Below, piece by piece: positions 11,754 to 47,594 of a DNA stretch of 64,000 nt (the first letter of the stretch is position 1; every line of letters starts with the position of its first letter). This DNA is from Peronospora farinosa (taxonomy: Eukaryota; Oomycota; Peronosporomycetes; Peronosporales; Peronosporaceae): positions 310,001-374,000 of the forward strand of contig CANTFK010000020.1 in NCBI GenBank assembly GCA_947646735.1, given 5' to 3'. The translations under genes were made by a program, and so were the position numbers. Below the pieces are notes generated by a model. It was not told the DNA's origin. It searched no databases and saw nothing but the letters and a program-made list of their open reading frames with translations.

Positions 11754-12896
11754 TGTGGTGGAGTGGGTTCTCAAAATTGTATGATGAGACCCCAAACCAC
11801 TCACTGTGACGGACTGCCGACTGTCGGAGGGAGTACCCCGATGCCGCGTATGAACCTTCTTTCACCTTGTGTACCCGTCGGCTGGCGGGTTGCACTCTTT
11901 GGAGGACTTGGTGAAGATGTAGACGTCTACCTTGAGGGAGGTAGACCTGGGGGGGGCCTCGAGTGGATATGCTTCACTCGGTGGGCCGGTAGGTGGCATC
12001 TCGATCGACCTTGTCGAGAGTGGACTTAGAGCCAAATTCTTCAGGGCGCTTATCCCTGGACTTTTCCTTCTGTTTCAGGGGTATCAACCACCTGACCTTT
12101 ACGTTGCTCCCGGACCTTGAGGTGAGGGAGACCGCTTCTGATAGCGGGTCTTGGGGGGTGTTGCTACTCGAACGAGCTCACAGGCCAAATATATCCTGGA
12201 GCTCTATTCGCACTTGAACTTCGCTACACAACTGTCTTCGACGGGGGGCCAAAGTATATCCCTTCCCGGAACAGTGAGTAACTTAGAGCAAGTTCTTCTT
12301 GGTGACGGAGTCGTGCCACGTAGATCGCAAATTGAGTAGTAGTATTTAATATAGTCCTATCCTTTTTACTCCTTTACTCTATCCTTGCCTGAAGTTCTGA
12401 TTCCTTGCGTCGACTAGTATGATCCTTGTATTAACTGGTCCGGAGTGGCTGAACCTCGAGGGGCCGAGGTCGACCAATGAGGGATCCAGGTCGACCAATG
12501 AGGGACCCAGATCTACCAATGAGGGATCGGGTCTACCGATGAGGGACCCAGGTCGACCTATGAGGGACCCGGGTCTACCAACGAGGAGCCAGGTCGATCA
12601 ATGAAGGGACCGGGTCAACCTACGAGGGACCCAGGTCGACCTATGAGGGACCCGGGTCTACCAACGAGGGGCCAGGTAGATCAATGAAGGGCCATGATCA
12701 ACTCCCTTTGGTACCGGTTAACCGGTATCCTGATACTGATTTTTTCTTCGGTGGGTCCTGCGGATTGTTCTCCACCAACGGTCGCTCCCCTTCGAGGCCC
12801 CTGTCTCTCTGGTCCCCTGTCCCTGACCCACGGTCTACACTCCGAATCCAACTGGATTCTGGGACCTCCACATCACAAAAACAGCACTTCATCACA
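11754..12896 (-). repeat. 5' LTR of element B
   Basis: It is 1143 bp, with termini TGTGGTGG and ATCACA on the plus strand. It pairs with the solo LTR at 1601-2859 and more distantly with the E LTR, whose first 50 bases and the ACCTTGTGTACCCGTCGG block align. It contains a 19-21 bp minisatellite at 12458-12690. Confidence 0.88.
12458..12690. repeat. Minisatellite in element B 5' LTR
   Basis: It is the same 19-21 bp unit family as at 2338-2655, here in about 11 copies with a different order of variants. Confidence 0.8.
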
Positions 12897-28720: not shown

Positions 28721-29039
28721 TGTAATGGGTCTACCTATTACATAAGTAGTTATAGGATTAATACATAATTACATAAGTAGGCATAGGGCAGTATCCGATT
28801 AGCGGATACTGCGCGTCATTTTATTATTGGTTTATTATTGGGGTGCCAGACCCAATAATTAGCCAATAATAAATTGACTTTCATATTGAGTGGTTCCCAT
28901 GAGCTAGGGAACATATTCGCACTTACTGCGAACTAAAACTAAAACAAAAATAAAACAGAGTAATATTTACGAGTTAATTAAGAGCGCTTCCTCAACGCCC
29001 TTTTAGTGTAAGACGGTAACGGGTCCTTAACCCGTTACA
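28721..29039 (+). repeat. 5' LTR of element C
   Basis: TGTAATGGGT to CCCGTTACA. Internally, a TTATTATTGG pair frames the middle. It is short for Gypsy but the same size as the D LTRs. Confidence 0.92.
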
Positions 29040-30108: not shown

Positions 30109-32636
30109 GTGGGGCGCCCTACTGGCAGAAATGGAGCTCCTAGTACTCAGGTGGCAGCTCGGGCTCCTAGCCCCAAAGTGATTCATACCCACTTCAATGC
30201 CACCACCATGCGCGATGATTCGAGACTGATTATTATCAGTCTCATCGTCGCTGGAGTGAAGCGACCACTTCGGAAATTGTTGGATTCTGGCGCTTCCAAC
30301 AACTTCTTTCGTGCATCCTGTTGGTCACTTCTCCCGTCAACTGTCACGGTTCGAGAAGGTCCAGGTGACATCGTTGTCAAACTTGCCGATGGACAACCAA
30401 AACGTGTCCCGCGTAAAACAGTGGTTTTACCGTACACTTTCGACGGTTTCCAGAGCAACGACGAATTTTTGGTGTACGAGATGAACTATGCATTTGATTG
30501 CATACTTGGGATACCGTGGCTGTCACGGTATCAGCCGAAAATAGATTGGCTATCTCGGTCCGTCAAACGACGAAGCGGTTATGACGTCAGTGAAGTGTTT
30601 ACTCATTTGTTGGTCGCTTCATCCGATTGGCCTCACGTCAGGGTCGTGAACGAACTCGCCACGACTAGTAGTCAACACAGAGAGAGCGATGGCCCTCTGT
30701 GCGTAGTATGTTCCGTTACACTGACGGAGCCACAGAACGAAGCGGTCGAACAGCGGTTCCCGCATACACAGACATCGGTCGAACAGGGGTTCCCGATGCA
30801 CAACGAGGCGGTCGAACAGCGGTTCCCGCATACACAGACATCGGTCGAACAGGGGTTCCCGATTCACAGCGAGGCGGTTGAACAGCGGTTCCCGCACACA
30901 CACATCGGTCGAACAGGGGTTCCCGATGCACAACGAGGCGGTCGAACAGCGGTTCCCGCATACACAGACATCGGTCGAACAGGGGTTCCCGATTCACAGC
31001 GAGGCGGTTGAACAGCGGTTCCCGCACACACACATCGGTCGAACAGGGGTTCCCGATTCACAGCGAGGCGGTCGAGCAGGGGCTCCCGCATACAAGCACA
31101 TCGGACGAGCAGAGGCTCCCGATCAATTTCGAGGCGGTCGAGCAGGGGCTCCCGCATACAAGCACATCGGACGAGCAGAGGCTCCCGATCAATTTCGAGG
31201 CGGTTGAGCAGGGGCTCCCGCGTACAAGTACATCGGACGAGCAGAGGCTCCCGATAAATATCGAGGCGGTCGAGCAGGGGCTCCCGCAAACAAGTGAAGC
31301 GGTCGAAGACGAGCTCCCGCTTTTGATTGACGAGAATGGGCGGACTACGGATCCGCATGAGACCGACGTGGTGGAGACAGAGCTCCCACGTCTAGAGGGG
31401 GGTACATCATCCTCTTGTGATAGCGACGTGCCAGTCTCGAGTAGGGGCTCGAGCCGCAAGAGAAAACGCAAGAAAGGAGCACGCCGATTACCGAGACGAC
31501 AAAATTCACATCAAGATGCTGATGCATTTGATTCCGTAGTGACGGAATCCGTATGCGCGCTTGAATATGTGGAGGGATCCCCACATCGTGGCCGCTATAT
31601 TGAGGTAGCGAGTCCACCGTGCACTGCTGCAGATATCACATCTCTGCCAGACCTTACATGGAAAGACTTCCTTCATGACCTCAAGGCCGGCGACATCGAG
31701 CAAGTGTGCATCTTTTTAGCCACCGAAGCAGCCAGTGAAGAGGTTCTGGAGGCTCGCCCGAAGAGCGCCGAGCCTAGATCAGCGCGCGAAGAACGCTTCG
31801 CGGCAAAGTCTTGGGATGCTCTTCGTGCTTCGGGCAACCCTGTATACGATATCGCCCGTGAGTACGCCGACATTTTCCCGGAGAAAATTCCAGCTGAGCT
31901 TCCGGCGGATCGTGGTGTGCGGCACGAGATAGATCTCGTGCCAGGATCAAAATATTGCGCGACACGGCAGTGGTCGTTACCGCGCGACCAAGTTATTGCT
32001 ATTGATGAATTTTTCGAGGGTCGCCGCAAGGCTGTCCATGTCCGCGAGAGTATCTCGCCACATTCAAGTCCGACTTTCTGTGTGAAGAAAGCCACCGGCG
32101 GTTGGCGCAATGTGCACGCCTTCAACAAGCTGAATGACGCCACGATCCCGGCTCAAACGCCTATCCCTCGAAAAGACATGGTATTAAATACCATGTCCGG
32201 GAGCGAGATCTACAGCGCCATAGATCTGACAGACGGTTTCTATCAGATCCTCATGAGGGACAGTGACATTCCGTTCACTGCGGTCAGTACCCCAAGCGGG
32301 ATGCTTTGGGAGTGGCTAGTCATGCCACAAGGCCTTAAGAATGCTCCAGCTACGTTCAATCGGATGGTGACACAAGTACTTCGCCCACTTCGCGACTTCG
32401 CACCGAGCTACTTTGACGACATTTTCGTTCACAGCCGCGCTGAGCAAAAGCTCAGCGCTACGGAGGTACACCTTCGACACTTGAAGCAGGTGTTTCAAGT
32501 TATGCGAGAGAATAAATTGTATGCGAATTCGAAGAAATGTGTCTTCTGCGCTCCCGAGATTCCAGTACTCGGTTGCTACGTCAGCAAGGAAGGTGTCCGC
32601 GCTGATCCTGAGAAGATCTCAACGATCTGTTCCTAG
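30109..32636 (+). pseudogene. pol: Protease, repeat linker and RT of element C
   Basis: The protease has LLDSGASNNFF (intact D-S-G-A) and the IPWLSRYQPKIDWL block. A repeat linker (30736-31300) contains two 2-bp losses, so the frame breaks at about 30895 and again at about 31028. RT restarts in the frame from 31008: [45 protein letters not shown], and catalytic SYFDDIFVH (F/Y-x-D-D) with the GVRADPEK thumb block. It stops at 32636. Confidence 0.85.
30736..31300 (+). repeat. VEQGFP-type tandem repeat in C pol linker
   Basis: Two related 33-bp units alternate as a 66-bp period encoding EAVEQRFPHTQ and TSVEQGFPIHS. A block of about 130 bp (30741-31020) was itself duplicated, carrying the same 2-bp loss twice. 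The second half changes to a 66-bp variant (EAVEQGLPHTSTSDEQRLPI). Element D has a diverged, non-tandem version (VVEPGFP, VVEQGLP). Confidence 0.88.
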
Positions 32637-35029
32637 CCAACGCCCAGGAACCAAACTGAATTACGTCAATGGCTCGGTCTGGCGAATTACTTGCATAAGT
32701 ATACGAAGAACTATGCTAAGCTAATTCAGCCATTATCGACTTTGCTCAAGAAAGATGCAGTATGGTTATGGACGGCAGAACATCAATCTGCCTTCGACTC
32801 CGTAAAGAAGAGCTTTTCCGAGGCACCGGTGCTGATGTTACCTGATGCTCTAAGCCATTCCACGTCGTGTGTGACGCGAGCAATTTCGCTATAGGATGTG
32901 CCCTCATGCAATTTGATGACGAGGGTCGAGAGCGCGTCGTGAGTTTTCAATCACGACAGATGAAACCTGCCGAGAAAAACTATCCGGTACACGACAAGGA
33001 ACTTTTGGCTATGCGTTACGCGCTAATCAAGTTTAGAGTATATTTGCTCGGTGAAAAGATGTTTTCTATCTACACAGATCACGCATCATTGCGTACCGCC
33101 GTCAAGAGTCCTCACTTGTCCCAGCGTATGGCACGGTGGTTGTCATTTTTTGCGGAGTATAATTTTGTGGTGCATTACAAGCCTGGCAAGAATAACATTC
33201 TCGCCGATGCGCTTTCTCGTCGTCCTGATTACGATCCTCGGCGTGATATGGGTCATCAAACGGAGTATGTTGATGACGACGAAGATATCTGTGTGTGTTG
33301 TATTGAACTGGGACTTAATGCGATGATTTCGACCCCCGTGCTTTCGATCCGAACTCAGATCGCTGAATCCTACGCGAATGATTCCTTCTATGCAGGAATC
33401 ATCAGCTATCTCAGGGACCCGAGCGAAAAATTACTCGCGAAGTTGACGAAACCAACACGCGACAACATCAAGAGTAACGCGCTTGACGGTCCGTTGCTGA
33501 CGTACACGATGGACGTCTTTGATTCCCCGCGTGTCGTCATCCCTGCTGATGACAATCTTCGAGCCCGATTGGTTCATGAATTTCACGACAGCCCAGCTGG
33601 TGGACACCTGGGTCGCGAAAAGACGTGTGCAGCTATTTCTCGCGTATTCTTCTGGCCGCGAATGTATAAATACATCCAGAAATGGGTGCGCTCCTGTGAA
33701 ACCTGTCAGCGTGTGAAGCCTGCGCCGTCTTCACAAGCCCCATTGCGTTCGATTCCGATTGCTACGGAAGCCTGGCGCTCGGTCAGCATGGATTTTATCT
33801 TTGGCCTTCCACCGGATGAACAGAAACGCACGGGCGTATTGGTTCTAGTGGATCGATCGATTCAGCAAAATGGTGCATTTTGCTCCGGTCTCCGCCAACA
33901 TTACGGCGGAGACGACAGCGAAGATCTTCATTGATCTTATCTTTAGGCATCACGGCTTGCCAGAATCTATTGTTTCGGACCGTGACCCGCGTTTCACTTC
34001 GGCTTTCTGGGCCGAATTATTCCAGCTATTAGGCACGCGGTTTCTTATGTCTACGGCGGCCCATCCAGAGACGGATGGGCAAACGGAGCGTGTGAACAGA
34101 GTGCTCGAAGATGTCTTGCGCAGTTATGCAACATCTTTCTCATCATGGAGTTCATTTCTCCCACTTGCAGAGTTTGCAATCAACAATGCTGTCCACGCGT
34201 CAACCGGGTTGACGCCCTTTTTCGTTAACAACGCGAGGCATCCTCGCGTTCCGGCGCTGCTTGCTCTCTCAGCTTCAGAACACCCTGTCTCCAAGCTTGG
34301 TGGGGGAGTATCTACGGATGGAATTGCGCCGGAACTATTGATGATTGATTACGATGCGCATAAGGTTGCTGCCTATGCACCTACTACTGGTAATTTTGTG
34401 GCCAACGGCATATCGACTCCTGGCGCGATGCTTTCCATCGCGTCTTCCGTTGCCAATCTTGCTCCAAAAGAACATACGTCGCCTGTAAGTTCGGCTGCAG
34501 TAACCGAATTTCTACTATTACGACAAGGAATCACGCGTTTTGTGCGTGATGCATTACAAGATTTAGTCGACAAGCAAAAGGAGAATGCAGACAGAAGAGG
34601 TCGAAGAATATGTTGATATTTCGAGAAGGTGACAGAGTATTGTTATCAACAAGTGGATTAACAAACACCTCAGTGACGAATTTGAGCGCTAATAAGTTAG
34701 CGCCAAGATATATTGGCCCACTTCGGGTTGTTAAGGTGCATGGTGACGCTTACACGCTAGACATACCTACATCTATGCGTTTGCACCCGACGTTCTACGT
34801 CGGGCGCCTCAAGGCTTACCTGCCGGCGGATCTCCCTTCGAATCTTTCCCGCTCTTCTGTGCCGGCTCGAAATCCGACATCCCTTGACGACGACGTTGAC
34901 GACGACTGGGACCAAGTCCTGCCCGAACGCGTGCAGACTCGATCTGCTGGGGCCCTCCGAACGCAGTCGTCTCAAGTTGACGTAGGCGCTCAACCAGTAC
35001 CAGCTGCTCACGTCGAGTCCATTCAGTAG
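32637..35029 (+). pseudogene. pol: RNase H and integrase of element C, broken
   Basis: RNase H is seen in CDASNFAIGCALMQFDDEG, the NYPVHDKELLAMRYAL block and YTDHASLRTAVKS. Integrase zinc-binding is HEFHDSPAGGHLGREK and CETCQRVKPAPSS. The catalytic core has D in MDFIFGLPPD, D in IVSDRDPRFTSAFW and the ETDGQTERVNR block. The GPY/F-like tail is LAPRYIGPLRVV and FYVGRLKAYLPA. Frameshifts lie near 32636-32690, 32855, 33865 and 34610. Confidence 0.85.
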
Positions 35030-36213
35030 CCTCAGTCGCAGCATCCGCACGATCTTGAGCTCTATCAGTCATCTCGCGAGCATCAAGTAAGGCATTCTTT
35101 GACTCCTCGAATTCAGCGCAAAGAAGGCGCAGCTCATCATTCGACTGTACAGGCGCCCGATTACGAGAATCGGCGCTCATCGCCAGAGGCCTTCCGTCGT
35201 GATGCTCCTCCTCCATTAGTCGATGCATCGGGTGCGCGACGCTGGATTGTCGACCGGATTGTCGATCACGAGGATCACAAGTCCCAGGCGCCGAGTAATA
35301 ACTCGGCGCCCATGAAGAAGCGTGTCGAGAAACATTACAGGGTTCGCTGGTTGGGATATTCCCCGGTGGACGATACATGGGAGCCATCGAGTACGCTGTC
35401 CCAAGATGTCCCGGACGTGGTCGAGGACTACGAGTCCCGTAGAAAGACGGTGATCGCGACCGACGCTGACGGTTCCATCCCCGATCTCGCGAGCCGTAAT
35501 GCTCGCGAGCAACGAAACCGCGACGACCTCCCGAGCGACTCCGAGACCGAGACCTATTACGAGGCTCGGGAGCATATGGATGATACGGTTGACGACCTCG
35601 GCTACGTGAATGCCGTCGGCGATCGTAAGGACGCGTTCTCACTCGCCGTAGCTCGGACACCTGGAGCTCCGAAAGGCTTCTCTCATAACGGGCAATCCAT
35701 GGACGAATATGGTCGGGCATGCCTCGCGCACACACTAAGTCGTCCCATTCCTGCCGGACCGGTCGCGACCTGCCCACGTTGCACGTTGTACATCCCTCAC
35801 GAATGTGGACGTAACAAAGGTGATACTCGTCACAAGTCATACGACAGATGCGCCGGCAGGTCGCCAATAGCGTGTCTATCACGCGTTCCCTCGCGACCGT
35901 CTAACCAGGACGTGAAGGACGTTCCTTCACGTCGGCTCGCGCTCCAGCGCCTGATGAAGGCACACCAAGACCTCTGCAACGCATCGTCGGTATATGCGTT
36001 GTTCGTCGCCTTGCCTCTCACTGTACGGTATCGCGTGAAAAGTTTCTTCATGACCTCCAGTGGCTCGGGTTCGACAGCACCTTCAAGACCATACAAGCGC
36101 CACGGTTTCAAGTCCCCATCCATGACCTGCGGCGCCTGCTCTCTACGGATTGTCGCTTGGTGTTCCCAGTTATGGCTGTCAGAGACATTGTTTCGTGGGC
36201 GCCTAGTGTCCAT
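34809..36213 (-). pseudogene. Antisense ORF of element C, RS-rich, zinc-like motif
   Basis: Two overlapping open frames (36213-35830 and 35882-34809) read opposite to C with one frameshift between them. The N-terminal domain shares ALQRSWCAFIRRW with ALQRSWCAFIQRW in element D, and WRLYGLEGA with WSLYDLSGA. Next is LCYVHIREGCTTC, a C-x2-H-x4-C-x2-C motif also in D. An Arg/Ser-rich region follows (RSRSRSRSGGRR), and a heptad-like C-terminus (LRLLCAEFEESKNALLDARE). It starts about 110 bp from the 3' LTR and covers the sense chromodomain and integrase tail. The function is unknown. Zinc or nucleic-acid binding is inferred from composition. Confidence 0.72.
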
Positions 36214-36226
36214 GCTGCTCAGTTAA
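35099..36226 (+). pseudogene. pol: Chromodomain region of element C pol
   Basis: This is an open sense frame of 375 codons. It contains PPPLVDASGARRWIVDRIVD, then chromodomain core HYRVRWLGYSPVDDTWEPS at about 35331-35390. In chromoviruses this domain steers integration by binding modified histones. The last 250 codons after the core show no domain and probably stay open because the antisense ORF is under constraint on the other strand. It is separated from integrase by a stop at about 35027. Confidence 0.7.
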
Positions 36227-36312
36227 ATCTAACTGAGCAGGTTCGGAGTTACGCCGTTGGTCGAGAAGAAACTTTCTGCGATTCGCGCTTACGTTGAGGT
36301 AAGCGCAACTTA

Positions 36313-36325
36313 AAGAGGGGGATGA
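36313..36325 (+). other. Polypurine tract of element C
   Basis: AAGAGGGGGATGA lies directly before the 3' LTR. Confidence 0.75.
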
Positions 36326-36644
36326 TGTAATGGGTCTACCTATTACATAAGTAGTTATAGGATTAATACATAGTTACATAAGTAGGCATAGGGCAGTATC
36401 CGATTAGCGGATACTGCGCGTCATTTTATTATTGATTTATTATTGGGGTGCCAGACCCAATAATTAGCCAATAATAAATTGACTTTCATATTGAGTGGTT
36501 CCCATGAGCTAGGGAACATATTCGCACTTACTGCGAACTAAAACTAAAACAAAAATAAAACAGAGTAATATTTACGAGTTAATTAAGAGCGCTTCCTCAA
36601 CGCTCTTTAAGTGTAAGACGGTAACGGTTCCTTAGCCCGTTACA
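36326..36644 (+). repeat. 3' LTR of element C
   Basis: It is 319 bp, about 98% identical to 28721-29039. It is followed by GTCTTT, the right target duplication. Confidence 0.92.
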
Positions 36645-36650
36645 GTCTTT

Positions 36651-37800
36651 CGTCAATATATTTTCATCTTTCACAATGGGCAACTTATTAGCCACTTCTC
36701 GTGGCATCAAATCGTGATCATTAATTTTCGGCTTGGAATAAACATCTTGACAATCGTGGTCAATAAATCGATCCTGTTTCGGATCGGTCCCTTTGACCAT
36801 TGACCACAAATGGACATTGCGTCTTATCTTCGATCTCCTTTTCTTCTGTGACCTCATTGCTAGCATTTTATTCTGGAACACTTTCGTCCTCCGATTGTGA
36901 TACGATCTTCATGCTTTCCATTACCTTTCCTGTATTTTCCTTCTTTGGACGTGTTAGGATTTTCTTTGGCGTAAAATATGATCGGTGATCCACTAGTGGT
37001 CCCGTATATTCTTCTAGCTATTCTTTTGGCCGATCCGTTGTGGCTTCAAACGCTTATGTATGCCATTCATTATATCGACGTGATCCGACTGAGACATAAC
37101 CTAGAGAACGAGGGATCATATCTGTAGCCATCTACATACCCAATGATATGCCGTGCTTAAGAACTATCTCTTTAACACTGAGATTCGTGATCTGCAGGTA
37201 TTTTCTCATGCCAGGTCCGGAAATTACAGTAGGGACCCAATTGGGACCTCGCGTTACCCATAATTTTGCATCCGGACGACCAAGGCTAATCGTTACTTCC
37301 GCTGAAAACCCCGCTGAAATATTCACATATTGTTTTTTATCACTAATAACTTAAATAAAAATCATATGGGGGTCGTCGTCCTGAAAGATGGATACGAACT
37401 TCATCCGGCAGACAAAGTGCTCCATCAGCGAGATCGAGGCGAATTCCAGCCGGGACCATAAAATCCATCCCGAGAATGGCTTCTTGGCCAGCTTGATCAC
37501 CAACCCAAACATCGAAATAATACACCAGCGTTCCTGCCAATGTGACTTTGATCTTTATACGCCCAATTGTCTCGTACGAATTTTCTTTAATTCCCACATC
37601 TGACTTTCGTCAATGACACAGCCAATCTTTCGAGCAAAGGTCGTGTCAACAATTGAGACTTCGGCGCCGGAATCAAAAAGCATCGTGGCTATTTCATTAT
37701 TTATCTTGCCTGTGGCTTTCGCTTGCTTATACCATTTAGCAGGCGCATGATATTTCCAATATCCACAAGATTCGCCTGAAGCCAGGTTTAATCCCATCAT
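36651..37800 (-). pseudogene. pol: Linker and protease of element E
   Basis: The protease lies at 37800-37343 with active site MLFDSGAEVSIVDTTFARK and the block AILGMDFMVPAGIRLDLADG, nearly the same as in B. A frame change lies near 37590. The C-terminal part continues at 37326-37132 (LWVTRGPNWVPTVI). The acidic linker towards RT (about 37100-36651) is decayed and ends at the element C target site. Confidence 0.78.
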
Positions 37801-37806
37801 ACTTTC

Positions 37807-39835
37807 TTATCGTAGAAATTCATTAACTCCCTTGACGCTGGAAACGAAAAATGAAGTATTCGAATTCAATACACATATATTGTTATTTATGTTTTCCGTT
37901 TCATCAATCTCGCAGTCATCCCTCCTTTCGATATATGCATAAGTGCAGAGCCTAGAACGCTCGGCTCGTACCAGATTCCAACCTGGCAATCGCCCTAATT
38001 TATCATCTTTTTCGCCTTTTCTGGGAGCATTCCTGCATGTTTGTTCGGAACATACCATTGGCGGATCACGTTATAGAATTACTCCTAGGACACTTTTCCA
38101 CCTCATGCAACTCCCCACAAGCACGGCAAACGAAAGAAATTTTCTGATGGATGTCCTTTGCGGCTGCATTTCTGGCATGTTAACCTTTTCCAATAGCCTC
38201 GATCATTATGTTTGATGGAACACCAATGGGTGCAAGGTTTCATCTGCACGTTAACGACCGTGCGACCATCTTGATCCATTGTATCTAGACGATTCCCTTG
38301 ATCACGCAAAGATTTCGGAGGATCTGGTCGCGCAGTCGAATAAATCTGGCGTTGGTCGCCATCGGGCTCGGATCCGCTAAGATATGATTTCGATTCACTG
38401 CTCGCCATTTCCATGCAAATCGCATTACCCGCTCGAGTTGGTTTAAAGTGAGATGGAGTAGGAGGTGTTATCACATTCTGTCGAAAATTTTCCGATCCCA
38501 TTGAAGCCTTACCGCGACGATCGCGGCCTCGCTGATATGCACGAAGAGTTTCTCTCAAAGCTATAGCATCTTCCAGATGCAATAATAAGAGCTGGTCGGC
38601 CAATTCCTAGTTATACATAATTTCAATGTAATGCTCCACATGTTCACGATTCACTTCGGGAGTGCCATCTAAAACTTGAATTTTTGCTCGCATCCCCGCC
38701 ACATTCAGTCGGTAGAGATATATAAGTGGCGATTCATCCGAACGCTTCCGCGCATGATAATATTGTCGCCCAGCGGAAGCTCCCTGTCCACATAATTCTT
38801 CCACGAAAATTTCCAATAACCTTTTCCATGAGTTCCTCGTTGATCTGCTCAATTGACGATGTCAAATTTTAGCTAGTCCAATTAGCAGGTCGCCGAACAC
38901 TAGGCATTTTTCGCTGTCTGGGGCCTAATCGCGTAAGAAATCAGACTAAACCTTACCGACACTGTATCGCTCGGTCTTTGTCTTTCCCTGCAAACTCTTT
39001 TAGATCCGAGATTGCTAACACGCGAATGCGTGAAGAGGAATTTCCAATCCCGATGACATCTCCGTAGTTGACACCAAAGGTCGTCTCGATTCGTCAATCT
39101 TTAAATCATCAGGGTCGTACTCCATAAGTTGGCTATGGTGCGATCCTACAGACTCCATATCCACATCTGAATATGCTTGACCTGTTTTTTTAGTCGGTGT
39201 CTTATTCACGCGGTCATTGTTCCCACCTTGATGTTTCTGCTCCTCGATAAATTTCTCCATGGCTACATTGAAAAACTGCTGCATATCTTCAAAATTTATA
39301 TTTTTTGTAATATCAGAGGTGATCACGGGCGCGATCGTAGGAATAGGCTCCGTCTTGATACTTGCCATGTGATCCTGTAGAAAAGCTGCACAGTTCGGGC
39401 CCCAGCGACATCCGGCTTAGATCCAATGAATCCTCTCACATGGCTTCAGCCTCAGCTGACGCATATCGTGACGATCCATTCAGATAATCCTTGTAATCAT
39501 CGATCTCCAATTTGTTTATCGTGTCGTCCAGATCACATATACCCATCAGTGGAATTAGCTTCAATAAAAGAAGATTCACCGTGGTCGTGATACGATATTC
39601 GCCGAAATCCAGGGTGTCATCAACGTCAAAAATTTTAACGTGACACCGGCTTCTCTCAGTAATTTTCTCATTCGTCGGATCGCATCAAATAGACTGGATG
39701 CTTTCCCAGGTGTTGACATTGGTCCACTCAACGCTTCAATCAGTTTCGGACGTAGCGTCCTCAACACAGGGTCTTCCGATAAAGTCCGTCTTAGTTCCTT
39801 CTAGTATAATTGATTCTCCAGCTGATCTCATTGAA
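37807..39835 (-). pseudogene. gag: ORF1 and Gag of element E, decayed
   Basis: It corresponds to B ORF1 plus gag. The ORF1 remnant is at 39767-39576. Gag begins near 39368 (MASIKTEPIPTIAP), the capsid part has GRQYYHARKRSDESPLIYLY (B: ARQYYHAKKRSEETPLDYLY), and the nucleocapsid part near 38200 keeps WKRLTCQKCSRKGHPSE with the last Cys of that knuckle lost. At least four stops or shifts are present. The 5' untranslated region and primer site beyond 39890 are missing because element D abuts here. Confidence 0.78.
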
Positions 39836-39900
39836 AACTTACTGATTTTTGTTTCTTAATCGCGATTTTAACTTGTCTTGATCGCTATTCGAGTTGGGGG

Positions 39901-40237
39901 TGTAACGGGGCTAGAACGTACCGTCACTAGCTTACACGTGCGCTTGAGGAAACTCAAGCCCAAGTATTAGATATTAAGTAAATTTAACTCTGATTTTTAT
40001 TTTGGTTTTAATTCGTACTAATTACGAAGATTTTAGTCGTAATAAATACGACAGTGTTCCCACCTTTCGGGAACCACACAATTTCAGGTTGATTTATCAT
40101 TGGTCCATATTGGGGACTTTAGGCCCAATAATAAACCAATAATAAATTACCAAGCTGTGCCCGCTATTCGGGCCCAGCACCTGCCTACATATGTAGTTGT
40201 TTATTCATATTAATACTATGTAATGTAGCCCATTACA
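39901..40237 (-). repeat. 3' LTR of element D
   Basis: TGTAACGGGG to CCCATTACA on the plus strand. The minus-strand polypurine tract AGAAGGGGGTGA (40238-40249) lies directly beside it. Confidence 0.9.
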
Positions 40238-40249
40238 TCACCCCCTTCT
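40238..40249 (-). other. Polypurine tract of element D
   Basis: On the minus strand AGAAGGGGGTGA adjoins the 3' LTR. Confidence 0.75.
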
Positions 40250-40250
40250 C

Positions 40251-41715
40251 ATGACAGCGCTCACCAACCGTGAGCGCTCAACTGTCGAAAACCCTTCGCC
40301 TACAAACGAACAAGCAATGTCCGGAGACCCAACACCCAGTCCAGCAGCACTCCCAAGGAACGTCAGCGGGAGTGCATCAACCAACATCATGGCGCGGCAG
40401 CTCATACCTTGGTCGCTGTACGACTTGTCCGGAGCTCACGCTCCGGACTCACTGGACATGATGCGGGACTACTTCCGCCGATTTCGAAAACTGCGCGGGA
40501 AAGGTCTTGATGGAATCGAGCATGAAGCTCTACAACGTTCTTGGTGCGCCTTCATCCAACGTTGGAATCGGATGCTTGAGGATGGTAGCAGCTTTCAGTT
40601 ATGGCTCGCCAATCGAGAGGAGCTTCGCGCCGATCACTCCATCGGCACGCTACGCGAAAGAGTGTGTGAGGATGCTTGGAATGAGGACCGTCTCTGCTTC
40701 GTCCATGTCAATGAAGGATGCCAATCTTGTGACTCGACTCCACGCCCAACTCATGACGAATGGCGACGACACATCGCTGAGTGTACACTCAGTGATCGCG
40801 AACGAAGTTGGATTACGAAGTATGAGCGAAGTCTGGGCGAACGGAGAAGCGCAGTTATTCGTGGTGCGCCCCGCTGGCGGCACCACTCACGACAGCGGAG
40901 TCAATCTCCGCGGGATCATCAGCGCAGGGCAGCGACACGTTCGCCTGCCCGTCCAGTTGCGCGATTCTCGCCTCGCAATCGTGATATGTATTCACCGCGA
41001 CATTCTCGATCACGGCATCGATCTCGTTCGCGACATCGTTTGCGTTCGCGACATCGTTCTCGTTCGCGTCATCGTTCTCGTTCCCGACGACGTGGACCTC
41101 CTTATCGCTCTCGTTTGTCACGAGATCGTTCGCGTGCTCGCCCGCCTTGGAATAGTCCGACTTCGTGGCTTCATACGACAGAATCACATCTGGAACGTCA
41201 CGAAGGAGCGAGGAACGTGGTTCCCATGTATCCTGCTCGGGAGGGAATCCAAGCCAACGTACTCAGTACCTACGCGCGGATGGAACCGCACGCTTCTCAT
41301 GAGCCGAACTGCAGTAATGGTTGTGGAGGGTCCTCGTGACCCACAATGCGGTCTACAATCCAGCGCACCTGTCCCTCCGCATTAACAAGCGGAGGAGGGC
41401 CATCGCGGTGGTAGAGCTGGCGTCCTGGTTGCTCAGAACGATGTTGATCAGGCCGTGAATATAGCTGCCGATGCTCGGCTGGAGGCTGAGGCTGCCAGTG
41501 AACGTGCTGCCCAGGCGGAGAAGACTTCGAGTGAGACCCGGCAGTCGAACCGTGAACTGCTCGAGCGGATAAGGATTCTGGAGCGCCAGATGCTTGGTCA
41601 GGTTCAGACGGGATCGAGACCCCGCCCCATGTCATCGGCGCGTCGAGCACGACGGGAAGGCCGTTCGACTTACGAACCCCTGAAGCCGGCGTCGGAGCCA
41701 AACCGTGAAGCGTAG
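40251..41715 (+). pseudogene. Antisense ORF of element D, RS-rich, zinc-like motif
   Basis: The open frame 40251-41339 (362 codons) begins 14 bp from the 3' LTR, and a tail frame at 41455-41715 corresponds to the C-terminus of the element C version. Domains in order: LIPWSLYDLSGAHAPD and ALQRSWCAFIQRW; C-x2-H-x4-C-x2-C as LCFVHVNEGCQSC; an Arg/Ser/His-rich segment made of short tandem codon repeats (RSRHRSRSRHR, 41000-41100); then a helical tail (RAAQAEKTSSETRQSNRELL) and RRARREGRSTYEP (C: RRQRRRQGMSDFEP). A stop/frameshift lies between 41339 and 41455. The tail overlaps sense integrase coding. The function is unknown. Confidence 0.75.
41000..41100 (+). repeat. RS-codon tandem repeat in D antisense ORF
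   Basis: Units such as CATCGTTCTCGTTCGCGA recur about five times, encoding alternating Arg-Ser/His-Arg. It looks like recent expansion by slippage within the antisense frame. Confidence 0.7.
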
Positions 41716-42119
41716 CCGGACGATATTCCTTCAGCCGCCCGACATAGAATGTCGGGTGGAGTCGCAGTGAAGAGGGGACGTCGAGTGTATAAGCGTCGCC
41801 AATTGCCTTCAGAACCTTGAATGGACCGATGGAGCGTGGCGCGAGTTTACTCGCGCCCAGATTAGTGACCGCAGAATCCCTTAAACCTTCCGTAGATAAT
41901 AATACACGGTCACCTTTCTCAAACTTGCTCATGTTCTTTCTTCCATGTTTGTCAGCGTTCTCCTTCTGTTGGTCTACAGCAGTTTGTAGTGCGTCGCGTA
42001 CAAACCGGGTGATGGCTTGACGTTGGAGTATAAATTCCGACACGGCCATGTCATCAATTGGTCGCGCCGACTCAATCGGCGCGTAGTTGGCAGTAAGGGA
42101 ACGCTTACCCGAAGACGGG
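41297..42119 (-). pseudogene. pol: Integrase C-terminus of element D
   Basis: The frame continues after a break at about 42120: FILQRQAITRFVRDALQ, KFEKGDRVLLSTEGL, LAPRSIGPFKVL and FYVGRLKEYRPA (GPY/F-type tail). Then RWIVDRIVGHED precedes a stop. Element C continues from the matching RWIVDRIVDHED into a chromodomain; D has none, so it was lost or replaced. Confidence 0.8.
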
Positions 42120-44309
42120 TCAACTCTGCGCAGTCCATCTAGCTAATGGGGACGCCACGTCTGATGGCGTCAAAATGGCCGTCTTTGCCTTGGATCGGGT
42201 TACTGCATTCGCGCTCAAAATACCGTGAGCTGCACTCGATCCTTGTTTATCACCTTTATTCCCCCCCAGAGTGGAGCCACTAGGTGTTGTGGGTCGCCCC
42301 ACGGCCAAGACAGTAGGAATACGAGGGTGACGAGCCGAATTCACAAAAAATGGTGTCAACCCTGTTGACGCGTGTACGGCGTTGTTGAGTGCGAACTCAG
42401 CGAGTGGTAAAAATGCACTCCAACTTGTTAATGACGTAGCATAACTCCGAAGAACATCTTCGAGGACTCGTTTCACGCGCTCGGTCTGCCCATCCGTTTC
42501 CGGATGGGCTGCCGTCGACATCAGCAGTTTTGTCCCGAGGAGCTCGAAAATTGATGTCCAAAATGCGGACGTAAATCGCGGGTCACGGTCCGAAACAATG
42601 TTTTCTGGAAGGCCATGATGACGGAACACCGCGTCGATGAAGTGCGCCGCGGTCTCTGCCGCGGAGACCTTAGCGTGAACAGGCACGAGATGTGTCATCT
42701 TGCTGAATCTGTCAACAAAGACCAAGATGCCCGTTCGAGCTTGGCTATCGGGAGCAAGCCCGAAGATAAAGTCCATCGAAACTGATCTCCATGCCTCTGC
42801 TGCAATTGGCAACGATCGCAAGGGAGCCTGTGACGATGGAGATGGCTTCACACGCTGGCATATTTCGCACGTTCGGATCCAGTTGCGTACCCACTTATAC
42901 ATGTGGGGCCAGAAGAAGTCTCGAGACACAGCCGCGAAAGTCTTTTCGCGGCCTAAATGGCCGCCAGCAGGAGCATCGTGATACTCGTGAATGATTCTTG
43001 CACGCAAATCCATGTCATTGGCAATCACCGTGCGAGGAGAATCGAATTGGTCGATGCTATACAGAAGCAAATCGCCATCTAAACTGTATCGATGAATATG
43101 GTCGCGCTTGGTACGGGATAATGCTCCCAGTGCAGCATCGCTGGGAGCACGCAGATACTCGATAATGTCTGCATAATCTGAGTCACCCTTGTACGCTGCG
43201 ACGATCTCATCAAATAAACACGGCTCGGGTGTAACCCGAGTTAAGTTCAGCGATACACACATTGCACATCGGTCATCATCGTCCTCGTCATCAGTAGCCT
43301 GGCGACTCAGAGCAGTCCGAGGATCGTAGTCGGGACGTCGTGACAAGGCGTCAGCGAGAATATTGGTCTTGCCTGGCTTGTAATGCACGACAAAGTTGTA
43401 CTCATAGAAGAATGAGAGCCATCGTGCCAACCGTTGGGACAGGTGTGGGCTCTTCATCGCTGTGCGCAGCGATGCATGATCGGTGTACAAAGCAAACGTA
43501 CTTTCACCAAGGAGATGCACGCAAAACTTGATGAGTGCATAGCGCATCGCTAATAACTCCTTGTCGTGAACCGGATAGTTCTTCTCAGCTGGCTTCATCT
43601 GTCGCGACTGATAACTCACGACTCGTTCACGGCCCTCATCATCAAATTGCATGAGGGCACAACCGATTGCAAAATTACTGGCGTCGCAAACCACGTGGAA
43701 CGGCTTGGAATCGTCTGGTAGGACCAGGACTGGCGCTGACGCCAGGCTCTTCTTTACTGCTTCGAAGGCTGCTTGGTGCTCGGGACTCCACAACCACGTG
43801 GCGTCTTTCTTCAAGAGTGACGACAAAGGCTGGATATAACCAGCATAATCCTTCGTATACTTGTGCAAATAATTAGCCAAGCCGAGCCACTGGCGCAACT
43901 CCGTAGGTTTCTTGGGGGTGGGCCAAGAACAGATGGACGACACCTTCTCTGGATCAGCTCGAACTCCCGATTTACTCACATAGCAACCTAACACCGGAAT
44001 CTCCGGTGCAAAAAAGACACACTTCTTGAGATTCGCGTACAACTTGTTGTCCCGCATAACTTGAAACACTTGCTTCAGGTGTTGAAGGTGAATTTGGACA
44101 TCGTTGAGGTTGCCCTCGGCGCGACTATGGACGAAGATATCGTCAAAATAACTTGGGGCAAAGTTCCGAAGAGGTCTCAACACTTGAGACACCATGCGAT
44201 TGAAAGTGGCCGGGGCGTTCTTCAACCCTTGTGGCATTACCAGCCACTCCCATAACATGCCACTCGGGGTGCTCACCGCGGTGAGTGGGATATCGCTCGG
44301 GCGCATCAA
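42120..44309 (-). pseudogene. pol: RT, RNase H and integrase core of element D
   Basis: The frame is 729 codons. It holds RT catalytic SYFDDIFVHSRAE, GVRADPEKVSSICSW, RNase H (VVCDASNFAIGCALMQ, HDKELLAMRYALIKF, LYTDHASLRTAMKS) and integrase zinc-binding HEYHDAPAGGHLGREK with CEICQRVKPSPSS. The integrase core has D in MDFIFGLAPD, D in IVSDRDPRFTSAFW and the DGQTERVKR block. All expected catalytic residues are visible. It is cut from the upstream frame by one missing base in the FYQIL codons near 44309. Confidence 0.87.
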
Positions 44310-47230
44310 ATCTGGTAAAAGCCATCGGTTAAGTCGATGGCACTGAAGATGACACTACCTGACATGGAATTCAGCACCATGTCCTTCCTGGGAATTGGCG
44401 TTTGCGCAGGAATAGTGGCATCATTCAACTTATTGAACGCATGCACTATCCGCCAGCCTCCCGTAGCCTTCTTCACGCAGAAGGTTGGACTCGAATGTGG
44501 TGAGATACTCTCCCGCGAATGACCCGCTTTGCGCCGCCCTTTAAAGATTGCGTCAATAGCTTCGACTTGATCTCGAGGCAACGGCCACTGCCGAGTCACA
44601 CAATACTTCGACCCTGGCACGAGATCAATCTCATGCCGAACACCGCGGTCTGCAGGAAGTTCAGCCGGGATCTTGTCCGGGAACACGTCTGCATACTCAC
44701 GAGCAATGTCGTAGACGGGGTTACCAGACTCTCGCAGGGCCTCCCATGACTGTGATGCAAACCTTTCTTCACGCGCAGACTTCGGCTCAGCGCTTCGAGG
44801 ACGCGCCATATGCTTCTCGTTTGCCACGGTAACCACCTCGTTGGTGATTAGACACACTTGTTCCACAGTGCCTCCCTTAAGGTCACGTAGGAAATGCTTC
44901 CAGGAAAGCCCTGGAAGACTTGTAATGGAAGACGCATTACGTGGAGGACTCTCGACCTCGATATATTGGCGCCTTTGTGGACTCCCTTCCACGTACACGA
45001 TAGCGTGGACACATTCCAACGCTAAATTCTCGGTGCTGCTGTCCCCATCGTGCTTCGAGTCACTACTCGAAGCTGGCGAACCGCAGTCAGGTGATAAACC
45101 ATCACCCCCCTCTAAGAACTGGATGTCGTCATCCAAGATGCCGGAAACACTGGACGGGAGTACCCCAAACTCGACCGTCGACACTTGATGCGGGAGCTCC
45201 TGCTCGGCCGCCGTAAACCCGCGTAGGAGCCCCTGCTCAACCACAGTATGCCCATGTGGGAATCTCGGTTCGACCACAGTGGGTGATGATGGGAACCCCG
45301 GTTCGACCATCATGCTCTCGCGTGGGGACTCCTGTCCGTCCACGTCACACTCGCTGGCGAGCTCTTGTTCGTCGCCACAATGCCCTTGTGGGAGCCCCTG
45401 CTCGACCACAATAGATGCAGATGGGAACCCCGGTTCAACCACTGCATTCACGTGCGGGAACCCCTGTTCAACCGCATTAATGACGCGCGGGAACCCCTGT
45501 TCGACTGCGTCGTCCTCGTCGTCCTCTTCGCTCTGTAGCGAGGAGTCACTGTCACTTGTGTCTCGAAGAACAGCACACGCAGTGCAGAGAGGGCCATCGC
45601 TCGCTCTGTGCACCGCCAACGTCGTGGAATCACACTCCACAACTGTGACGTTCGGCCAGTCACTTAGAGATACCAAGAGATGGGTAAACACTTCACTGAC
45701 ATCGAACTTGCGTCGACGTCTCACTGATCTGGCTAACCAGTCGATCTGGGGCTTATAACGTGCCAACCATGGCATGCCCAGTATGCAATCGAATGCATAA
45801 TTCATTGCGATCACCAGGAAATCATCATTACTGCGAAAACCATCAAATGTGTACGGCAACGACACTTCGCGCCGCGATACGCGGTGTGGTTTCCCGTCAG
45901 CCAACTTGACGACGACTTGGCCAGGTCCCTCACGGACCTGAATGCTGGGAGGCAGCATCGACAAACAAAATTCACGAAAGAAATTTTTTGTTGCTTCTGA
46001 GTCCAGGAGTGCTCGCAGAGGTCGCCGGACGCCGGCGACATGTAAACTGACAATAATCAGACGTGAATCACCACTCGTAGTGGTGGCATTTAACCGCGCG
46101 CGTAGCGCAGGAGGACTGGAAGGTTGGGCTGCCACCGGGGGACCCGGACCTCCGTTCCAACCAGTAGGGCGCCCTGCACCTACTGGTCCCGACCGTTTTT
46201 TTGGACGTGCGGCCGGTACAGCACCCTCATGATGGGCGTCCACTACTTGCACCGATAATGGGGCTGGCGCACGGCACTCTACCGCGCGATGTCCTGGCTT
46301 GCGACAACGAAAGCAAACCATTGGACGCCCGGTGCGAGCGTCAACTTTATGATGAAAGACACGTCGCCGGTCATCCGACGACTCAATCACGTCGATTTCC
46401 ATAGGTTCTGAACCAGAAGGCCGGGGAACGGTGACGACCGAGGGTTTGGCATATGCCTTTGTGACCCTAAAGTCTTCACGGAGTGCGATGGCAAATGCCT
46501 CCTCCAATGTGGCAGGCTCGGCGCGCTCCAGCGATAAGCGGGTCTGCCCCTCACGCATTCCATCCACAAAGACATTCACCTGCGTGTACATGTCCATGGG
46601 GTGCGTGATAATACACGACGCCAGATGCCTAGCCATCTGTACGTAGTCGCGCATCGCCATTTTACCCTGTCGCATCGACAGGAATCTTGATCGCACCAGT
46701 TTCTCCTCTTGTGGTGGCTCGAAGGCAAGACGGAGATCGTCCTGGATGGTATCCAAGGTGGGGAATGCGTGCTCGTCCACAACGAGTTTACCAAGGGCCC
46801 ACTCCTTGGCCTTCCCGGTGAGGCGGGAAAGAAGAAAGTTGACCTTCGCCTGTGGAGCCTTAAGAAGTCTCGAGGCGATGGCGATATCAACTTCTCGGAA
46901 CCACCGATTCAGCGATAACCGGTCCTTACCTTCTCCAGAGTAGGAGGAGGTTTCCATCTTCACGGCCTCATTACGTGAAGGGCGCGAGGGAGTTAAGCCT
47001 CGCCGGTTGGATTCGGCGAGCTCGCGTGCCATAAACTCATGTATGGCGAGACGTTGCGCGTCAGGGGTCGTTGATCTCATCAGCGACGCGACGAATGCCT
47101 CTCCCGATATCGCCGCGAGGCGATTAAGGGCATCCCACTCAACACCAGTAAGATGGGGGAAGGTCGCGTGCTCCAGAAATAAATCTGGAGCGTCAAAGTA
47201 CGACGATTCGCTCATCCCAAACTCGGGCAT
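44306..47230 (-). pseudogene. gag-pol: Gag-protease-RT start of element D, single frame
   Basis: This 974-codon frame has Gag ([31 protein letters not shown]), one CCHC knuckle [14 protein letters not shown], and protease with [13 protein letters not shown]. There the catalytic D-S-G-A has become D-S-E-A, expected to kill the protease. A linker has diverged VVEPGFP/VEQGFP repeats (about 45180-45500). The RT entry is [14 protein letters not shown] and [20 protein letters not shown]. Gag and pol are fused without a frameshift, as in other single-ORF Gypsy elements. It ends at the frameshift after GFYQI. Confidence 0.88.
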
Positions 47231-47256: not shown

Positions 47257-47594
47257 TGTAAAGGGGCTAGAACGTACCGTCACTAGCTTACACGTGCGCT
47301 TGAGGAAGACTCAAGCCCAGGTATTAGGTATTAAGTAAATTTAACTCTGATTTTTATCTTGGTTTTAATTCGTACTAATTACGAAGATTTTAGTCGTAAT
47401 AAATACGATAGTGTTCCCGCCTTTCGGGAACCACACAATTTCAGGTTGATTTATCATTGGTCCATATTGGGGACTTTAGGCCCAATAATAAACCAATAAT
47501 AAATTACCAAGCTGTGCCCGCTATTCGGGCCCAGCACCTGCCTACATATGTAATTGTTTATTCATATTAATACTATGTAATGTAGCCCATTACA
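47257..47594 (-). repeat. 5' LTR of element D
   Basis: It is 338 bp and matches 39901-40237 with about 7 substitutions and one 1-bp gap. Confidence 0.9.

Follow-up and report, generated by a model that had tools for sequence, protein, structure and literature searches.

Genes lying antisense to gag-pol are already known in long terminal repeat (LTR) elements, both in retroviruses and in some lineages of plant Gypsy retrotransposons, and mostly their function is unknown. In the retroviruses they include HBZ and APH-2 of human T-cell leukaemia virus (HTLV), where hbz is expressed from the 3′ LTR (PMC10186651), and ASP of human immunodeficiency virus type 1 (HIV-1), where the antisense gene overlaps env. 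In plants the Retand elements, a non-chromovirus lineage, have a region of 2.9-6.6 kb between pol and the 3′ LTR, and 97% of the recent Retand clusters have antisense open reading frames (ORFs) for TRP28 proteins (PMC11963269). Chronos is an oomycete Ty3/Gypsy group found in Peronosporales, and its pol carries a chromodomain at the 3′ end; the word 'antisense' is absent from the main text of the paper describing it (PMC5348765). We found no publication that describes such an ORF in the Gypsy elements of oomycetes, preprints and most subscription papers lying outside the search. We have analyzed a stretch of 64,000 nt of Peronospora farinosa DNA (assembly GCA_947646735.1, contig CANTFK010000020.1, positions 310,001 to 374,000 of the forward strand), termed the window here. 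It contains two oppositely oriented Ty3/Gypsy elements, termed C (+ strand) and D (- strand), and each has a long antisense frame opposite pol and beside its 3′ LTR. The presence of such a frame in both elements, which had been predicted from the letters of the sequence, was confirmed, and the encoded proteins are homologous.

The antisense gene of C and D is real and is kept by selection, a conclusion that we regard as nearly certain. In intact copies the protein has 468 amino acids in the C type (L032) and 487 in the D type (L004), and the two proteins are 35% identical. The genome (46.85 Mb in 274 contigs) was searched with both; the D protein gave at least 113 scored places from 717 candidates, and the C protein at least 114 from 676, these counts of places including fragments. 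For counts at the level of loci the best-scoring 30 loci of each search were taken, window copies included, and frames were measured from stop to stop. An antisense frame of at least 460 codons is present in 17 of the 30 D-type loci and in eight of the 30 C-type loci (11 of 30 for a frame of at least 440 codons), i.e. the frame is not broken in nearly all of the copies. Of the 66 loci fetched, 65 have the SH3 region of pol opposite the antisense frame, and in the remaining one no SH3 was found. With more than 100 places in one genome and a stretch that is free of pol, selection on the antisense protein becomes measurable, and the question of whether Gypsy antisense ORFs make selected proteins, and what role these have, becomes testable.

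The pol stop codon was mapped by alignment, using L024 and L032 as references. It lies opposite antisense codons 201-202 in 29 of the 30 D-type loci and opposite codons 114-115 in 28 of the 30 C-type loci. Codons 1-201 of the D gene therefore have no pol opposite, and in both types there are approximately 114 codons without pol on the other strand. The overlap with pol that follows amounts to ~860 nt for the D gene and ~1060 nt for the C gene, and in some intact copies both of its strands are open. The antisense gene ends within pol, at a point facing the linker that joins the integrase SH3 domain to the chromodomain. The N-terminal half had been predicted to lie outside the recognized sense domains; this is correct, but sense ORFs do reach into it. 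Over the 604 nt of D (L004) that are free of pol, stop codons number 2, 12, 7, 6 and 4 in the five other frames, and the antisense frame contains none.

Comparison of C (L032) with D (L004) in the core that is pol-free in both (85 codons) shows agreement at 48% of residues, with 33/32/52 differences at codon positions 1/2/3. In the stretch where pol is opposite in C only (72 codons) there are 34/27/52 differences. Pooling the 157 codons gives 67/59/104 (Fisher test of position 3 versus positions 1 and 2, odds ratio 2.9, p = 1.1e-7), with proportions of synonymous and nonsynonymous differences of 0.82 (pS, saturated) and 0.39 (pN). These codons were paired by a protein alignment that favours the antisense frame, so that a translated six-frame search is the less biased test. 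When the six frames of the D pol-free stretch were compared with that of C, the antisense frame came first with E = 1e-27, ahead of 4e-13 for the next best frame; only the ranking of these values counts, because the database was a single sequence. A third family (L063) is 73% identical to D (L004) over 154 codons beyond the pol stop, with dN (nonsynonymous) 0.153, dS (synonymous) 0.90 and a ratio of the two (omega) of 0.17, into which some neutral decay will have entered because L063 has two stop codons in the distal part of the antisense frame. Comparison with the closer copy L066 gave omega values of 0.41 and 0.57. Outside the overlap dN/dS is thus far below 1 for D against L063. Together with the persistence of the frame in many copies, this supports the prediction that the accessory protein is conserved in its own right and does not merely follow from pol.

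Sequence variants were counted in the 30 loci of each family relative to one reference copy each, excluding variants present in exactly two copies and listing stop gains apart. The p values are only indicative because the loci are related. In the pol-free part of C the ratio of nonsynonymous to synonymous changes among shared variants is 0.27 of neutral (8 synonymous, 6 nonsynonymous, p = 0.015), and 0.92 among singletons. In the C overlap the shared variants stand at 0.44 of neutral in the antisense frame (p = 0.004) and 0.92 in the pol frame, and in the D overlap at 0.71 (p = 0.18) and 0.63 (p = 0.10) respectively.

Three protein searches, the first of them with scoring confined to the 7989 candidates that had most words in common with the query, gave 18, 11 and 12 matches that comprise 34 distinct homologues. 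Together with P0001 and P0002 these make up the set of 36 proteins discussed below. All 32 of the named homologues are uncharacterized Phytophthora or Peronospora proteins, from eleven species of the former (capsici, ramorum, rubi, fragariae, nicotianae, megakarya, cactorum, infestans, palmivora, fragariaefolia and idaei) and two of the latter (matthiolae and destructor). This suggests that some 'hypothetical proteins' of Phytophthora may be retrotransposon antisense products. P0025 from Peronospora destructor is clearly C-like, with 62% identity to P0002 (33-34% for P0001 and P0003-P0004), and some of the Phytophthora fragariae and Phytophthora rubi homologues have 38-41% identity to P0002. 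These relationships suggest that the division into C and D types may predate these oomycete species. The tails of P0009 (Phytophthora ramorum) and P0025 continue, in a different frame, into the part of the window that lies antisense to pol, with 56% identity over 25 residues and 76% over 21 residues respectively, and so at least these two seem to share the antisense-to-pol arrangement. Among viral contigs there were four pattern matches, none of which was confirmed as a relative. Recent capture of a host gene is not supported by the homologues, all of the named ones being of the kind described above; copies standing apart from pol were not specifically sought. P0035 (Phytophthora fragariaefolia) has a long unrelated N-terminal part ahead of the antisense N-domain, and is perhaps a gene-model fusion or an insertion beside a host gene.

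The C and D proteins have in common the blocks LYxL and ALQRSWCAFI, LCYVHIREGCTTC / LCFVHVNEGCQSC, an arginine/serine (RS)-rich stretch and a basic tail, and AlphaFold models of both types place three regions in the same order, so that the same layout expected for both proteins was found. A helical N-domain (approximately residues 52-205 in D and 39-195 in C) is followed by a disordered middle (209-393 and 201-353) and a long helix (395-449 and 359-419). The two models are not independent, because their alignments share members. Ten-residue means of the predicted local distance difference test (pLDDT) in the N-domain are 63-91 in D and 76-95 in C, falling to 60 at the end, and block values in the long helix reach 97; confidence in the whole models is low, with mean pLDDT of 59 (D) and 64 (C) and predicted template modelling scores (pTM) of 0.30 and 0.33. 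The predicted long helix is probably a coiled coil, and is reflected in a sub-threshold Alanine_zipper match.

A four-cysteine pattern C-x9/10-C-[YF]-x6-C-x2-C is present within the predicted N-domain in 27 of the 36 proteins; the share was 17 of 18 in the mostly longer homologues before all were counted. By contrast with this, the zinc motif C-x2-H-x4-C-x2-C of the original prediction had to be rejected, since the histidine is not conserved and 16 of the 36 proteins have the motif. Arginine-serine dipeptides (RS or SR) number 8-24 per 110 residues in 17 of the 18 mostly longer proteins and three in the remaining one, and over all 36 proteins the total count runs from 2 to 39. Every one of the 36 proteins has a net positive charge. 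Pfam scans covered 22 of the 36 proteins at E <= 0.1, and P0001 and P0002 at E <= 1, where zf-CCHC was not listed for either. There was no match in PHROGs, and comparison of P0002 alone with the sequences of the PDB gave one match with E 0.87 and no assignment. We note that in seven of the 30 D-type loci (L007, L010, L017, L018, L020, L023 and L027) the longest antisense frame starts 63 nt past the usual ATG. An early stop precedes the frame in these loci (seen at codon 21 in L027), and an in-frame methionine is its second residue. The first 22 residues of the D protein may be dispensable.

The plant aORF-3R (Retand/TRP28) resembles the oomycete gene in being an ORF between pol and the 3′ LTR that is antisense to gag-pol, in its presence in many copies and in related species, and in a suspected regulatory or nuclear role (PMC11963269, PMC7264820). 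The oomycete ORF differs in that it also overlaps the end of pol over a long distance, begins close to the LTR, belongs to a chromodomain element and is RS-rich, and TRP28 (PF04195) was not matched in the Pfam scans. With the retroviral genes it shares a position opposite gag-pol. HBZ is however a basic leucine zipper (bZIP) protein, and the oomycete proteins have no bZIP match in Pfam, though a long helix is predicted; antisense transcription has been shown for HBZ and is postulated for the oomycete gene. As far as tested, the oomycete gene has no detectable sequence relation to the plant or retroviral antisense genes, while having the same position and orientation.

SR proteins and the retroviral Rev and Rex proteins offer a likeness of role only, i.e. 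an RS-rich low-complexity stretch, basic stretches, possibly an oligomerizing helix and possible nuclear RNA work. The RS-rich domain of SR proteins is also present in the oomycete proteins (17 of the 18 examined), but their RNA recognition motif (RRM) was not matched in Pfam, and no homology to SR proteins or to Rev and Rex was found. We propose that the antisense protein regulates its own element, controlling expression in an SR-like manner at the level of nuclear RNA, and we put the probability of this whole reading at roughly 45%. Antisense transcription would begin within the 3′ LTR or further out, since the position of the start codon in D leaves no room elsewhere. The protein would then enter the nucleus through its RS and basic stretches, pair with itself through the long helix, and bind either the RNA of the element or host factors of splicing and export, so that the level or the export of unspliced gag-pol RNA would be controlled. 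Such a role would be comparable to that of retroviral accessory proteins.

A more far-reaching version of this proposal, which we consider doubtful, is that Gypsy elements of the Peronosporaceae carry an ancient antisense SR-like nuclear regulator of new fold that shapes the shared DNA in place of pol, the pol tail past the chromodomain being a shadow of the RS domain. If true, a retrovirus-like regulatory gene would have evolved independently in the LTR retrotransposons of stramenopiles. The shared variants of the C overlap are in keeping with this, since they favour the antisense frame. The pol tails of C and D beyond the chromodomain are only 19% identical over 89 codons, and therefore the antisense protein may be what shapes the DNA there, but the changes in the tail (48/44/61) fall mostly at sense third positions too.

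A number of observations weigh against a selected protein with a nuclear RNA function. When the overlap is paired by the pol proteins the C-D differences are 130/126/181 over 268 codons, sense third positions being the most changed (for pol outside the overlap, as a control, they are 117/79/209 over 355 codons). Each protein-guided alignment of the overlap favours its own frame, and this comparison cannot separate the two. The antisense omega relative to L063 is 0.68 within the pol overlap. In the pol-free part of D the shared variants stand at 0.61 of neutral, not significantly different from it (p = 0.12; singletons 0.62, p = 0.04), with one shared stop gain in the antisense frame; in the C overlap there are three such shared stop gains in the antisense frame and none in that of pol. 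Both window copies are interrupted by one frameshift, near 35856 in C and near 41308 in D, and are not the single ORFs that had been described. The match of C to the intact type runs from 36213 to 35857 in one frame and from 35855 to 34812 in another, and that of D from 40251 to 41309 and from 41308 to 41712. Neither an RRM nor any other RNA-binding family was found in the Pfam scans, and fold libraries gave no confident match; RNA binding, which had been put forward earlier as a possibility, is thus unsupported by these scans and rests on composition. The full four-cysteine pattern is missing in nine of the 36 proteins, three of which have tyrosine at the third cysteine and the others are short or different there, and several homologues are short or poor in RS dipeptides.

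The promoter is a further difficulty. The ORF had been described as starting beside the 3′ LTR, and it does so at 13 nt in D and 112 nt in C. The accompanying idea that the LTR could serve as an antisense promoter fared less well, since neither window LTR has a match to the oomycete INR, FPR or INR+FPR pattern on its antisense strand. There are two DPEP patterns on that strand in D and one in C, and the DPEP and CCAAT/ATTGG matches are weak (shuffle P of 0.03-0.05 for those in D, 0.06-0.43 for those in C). A candidate antisense core promoter in the LTR is not supported by these results. The absence of INR and FPR does not amount to a refutation, because 46 of 121 high-confidence promoters of Phytophthora infestans lack all three of the core motifs (PMC3599244).

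The frameshifts of both window copies, the three shared stop gains in the C overlap and the position of part of the ORF opposite pol could all be accommodated if the ORF were a by-product of the codon constraint and composition of pol. Yet in 29 of 30 D-type loci the predicted N-domain is situated past the end of pol, and where it is free of pol the D antisense frame is uniquely open and the best conserved, with the low omega found against L063; this explanation is already disfavoured, and we give it very little chance. It is also quite improbable that the antisense RNA matters and not the protein, with double-stranded RNA limiting the element and the open frame being secondary. Small RNAs of both orientations do occur along the Gypsy elements Pi-1a and Albatross in Phytophthora infestans (PMC3522703), a possible parallel, but the codon-position pattern and dN/dS of the pol-free part point to selection on a protein, to which a role of the RNA could be additional.

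If a protein is selected, it might act upon DNA or chromatin rather than RNA, regulating LTR transcription or integration with a possibly zinc-bound N-domain and a coiled coil, and using the RS region for nuclear targeting only. The presence of four patterned cysteines in a predicted folded domain (27 of 36 proteins) and the long predicted helix are consistent with this, and there are precedents that may be analogous: HBZ lowers expression from the 5′ LTR of HTLV-1 (PMC10186651), certain antisense proteins of plants are located in the nucleus or have predicted DNA binding (PMC11963269, PMC7264820), and such a role has been proposed for the TRP28 proteins of plants. On the other hand no bZIP, TRP28 or other DNA-binding family was found above the cut-off in Pfam, and the RS-rich middle would be longer than a localization signal needs, so that we think this alternative unlikely. 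Less probable again is a structural or life-cycle cofactor, either a component of the particle or one aiding nuclear import of the pre-integration complex. The basic tail, the predicted long helix and the linkage to a chromodomain element would suit such a function, and plant antisense ORFs have been discussed in connection with nuclear import (PMC7264820). Production of a structural protein from the antisense strand would however require a separate transcript in matched amounts, and no gag family was matched in Pfam. The regulator of nuclear RNA is therefore the reading that we prefer among these. The positions of the antisense genes, their predicted domains and the elements that carry them are collected in the table.

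Table. Positions in the window of elements C and D, their antisense genes and the predicted parts of the encoded proteins.
Feature	Position	Strand	Remarks
D antisense ORF, codons 1-353	40251-41309	+	first frame; window copy leaves frame near 41308
D antisense ORF, remainder and stop, codons 353-487 of L004 type	41308-41715	+	other frame
D helical N-domain, aa 52-205	40404-40865	+	model; nearly all beyond pol stop at 40855
D four-cysteine motif, aa 139-160	40665-40730	+	alignment, motif count
D disordered middle, aa 209-393	40875-41430	+	Arg/Ser-rich in first part; end (41430) approximate because the frameshift falls inside
D long helix, aa 395-449	41434-41598	+	model; block pLDDT 97 at residues 411-440
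C antisense ORF, codons 1-119	35857-36213	-	first frame
C antisense ORF and stop, codons 121-468 of L032 type	34809-35855	-	second frame
C four-cysteine motif, aa 124-145	35781-35846	-	alignment, motif count
C long helix, aa 359-419	34959-35141	-	model
5′ LTR of C	28721-29020	+	LTR match to 36326-36625, 99% over 300 nt
3′ LTR of C	36326-36625	+	inner edge 112 nt from antisense ATG (36213)
Sense ORF of C with chromodomain	35099-36226	+	usual C-type pol stop corresponds to ~35870
5′ LTR of D	47309-47594	-	LTR match to 39952-40237, 98% over 286 nt
3′ LTR of D	39952-40237	-	inner edge 13 nt from antisense ATG (40251)
Presumed polypurine tract of D	40238-40250	-	adjoins antisense ATG directly; judged by eye
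gag-pol pieces of D	40855-47230	-	interrupted in window copy; 3′ part overlaps antisense gene

On the sense strand eight pieces of C and D were scanned against Pfam. D has Retrotrans_gag, zf-CCHC, RVT_1, a Ty3-type RNase H, integrase and SH3_Tf2-1, with RVP_2 (protease) just below its cut-off, and C has reverse transcriptase (RT), RNase H, integrase, SH3_Tf2-1 and a chromodomain (PF00385, E = 1.1e-11). The chromodomain had no Pfam match in the D pieces scanned from the window; in the alignment the D-type copy L024 has chromodomain-like sequence at that place. Judged by Pfam in C and by alignment in D-type copies, C and D are oomycete Ty3/Gypsy families with a pol that ends in a chromodomain, in which they are like Chronos. 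Chronos has a dual RNase H, whereas the RT-integrase piece of D pol shows only RT_RNaseH / RT_RNaseH_2. Membership of Chronos was rejected, as the extra archaeal/plant-type RNase H was not found in the one window copy of D at E <= 0.01.

The interval between protease and RT in the sense polyprotein of C (30700-31353) contains a tandem array of 33/66-nt units that encode peptide repeats of the type VEQ[GR]FP, and a more diverged version of these is present in D at ~45300-45750. The repeat region is possibly a fast-evolving spacer common to the two elements. The LTRs of C and D have in common a block of 80 nt (40092-40171 and 28795-28874, 73%), with CCAAT/ATTGG boxes in both orientations. Between C and D, at 37343-39368 on the - strand, there are ORFs that by eye resemble parts of the gag and protease of another LTR element. 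Elsewhere in the window there is a further LTR-like pair of direct repeats, 1714-2013 and 11834-12133, which are 10.1 kb apart and 98% identical, and each is followed by tandem repeats of 20-21 nt.

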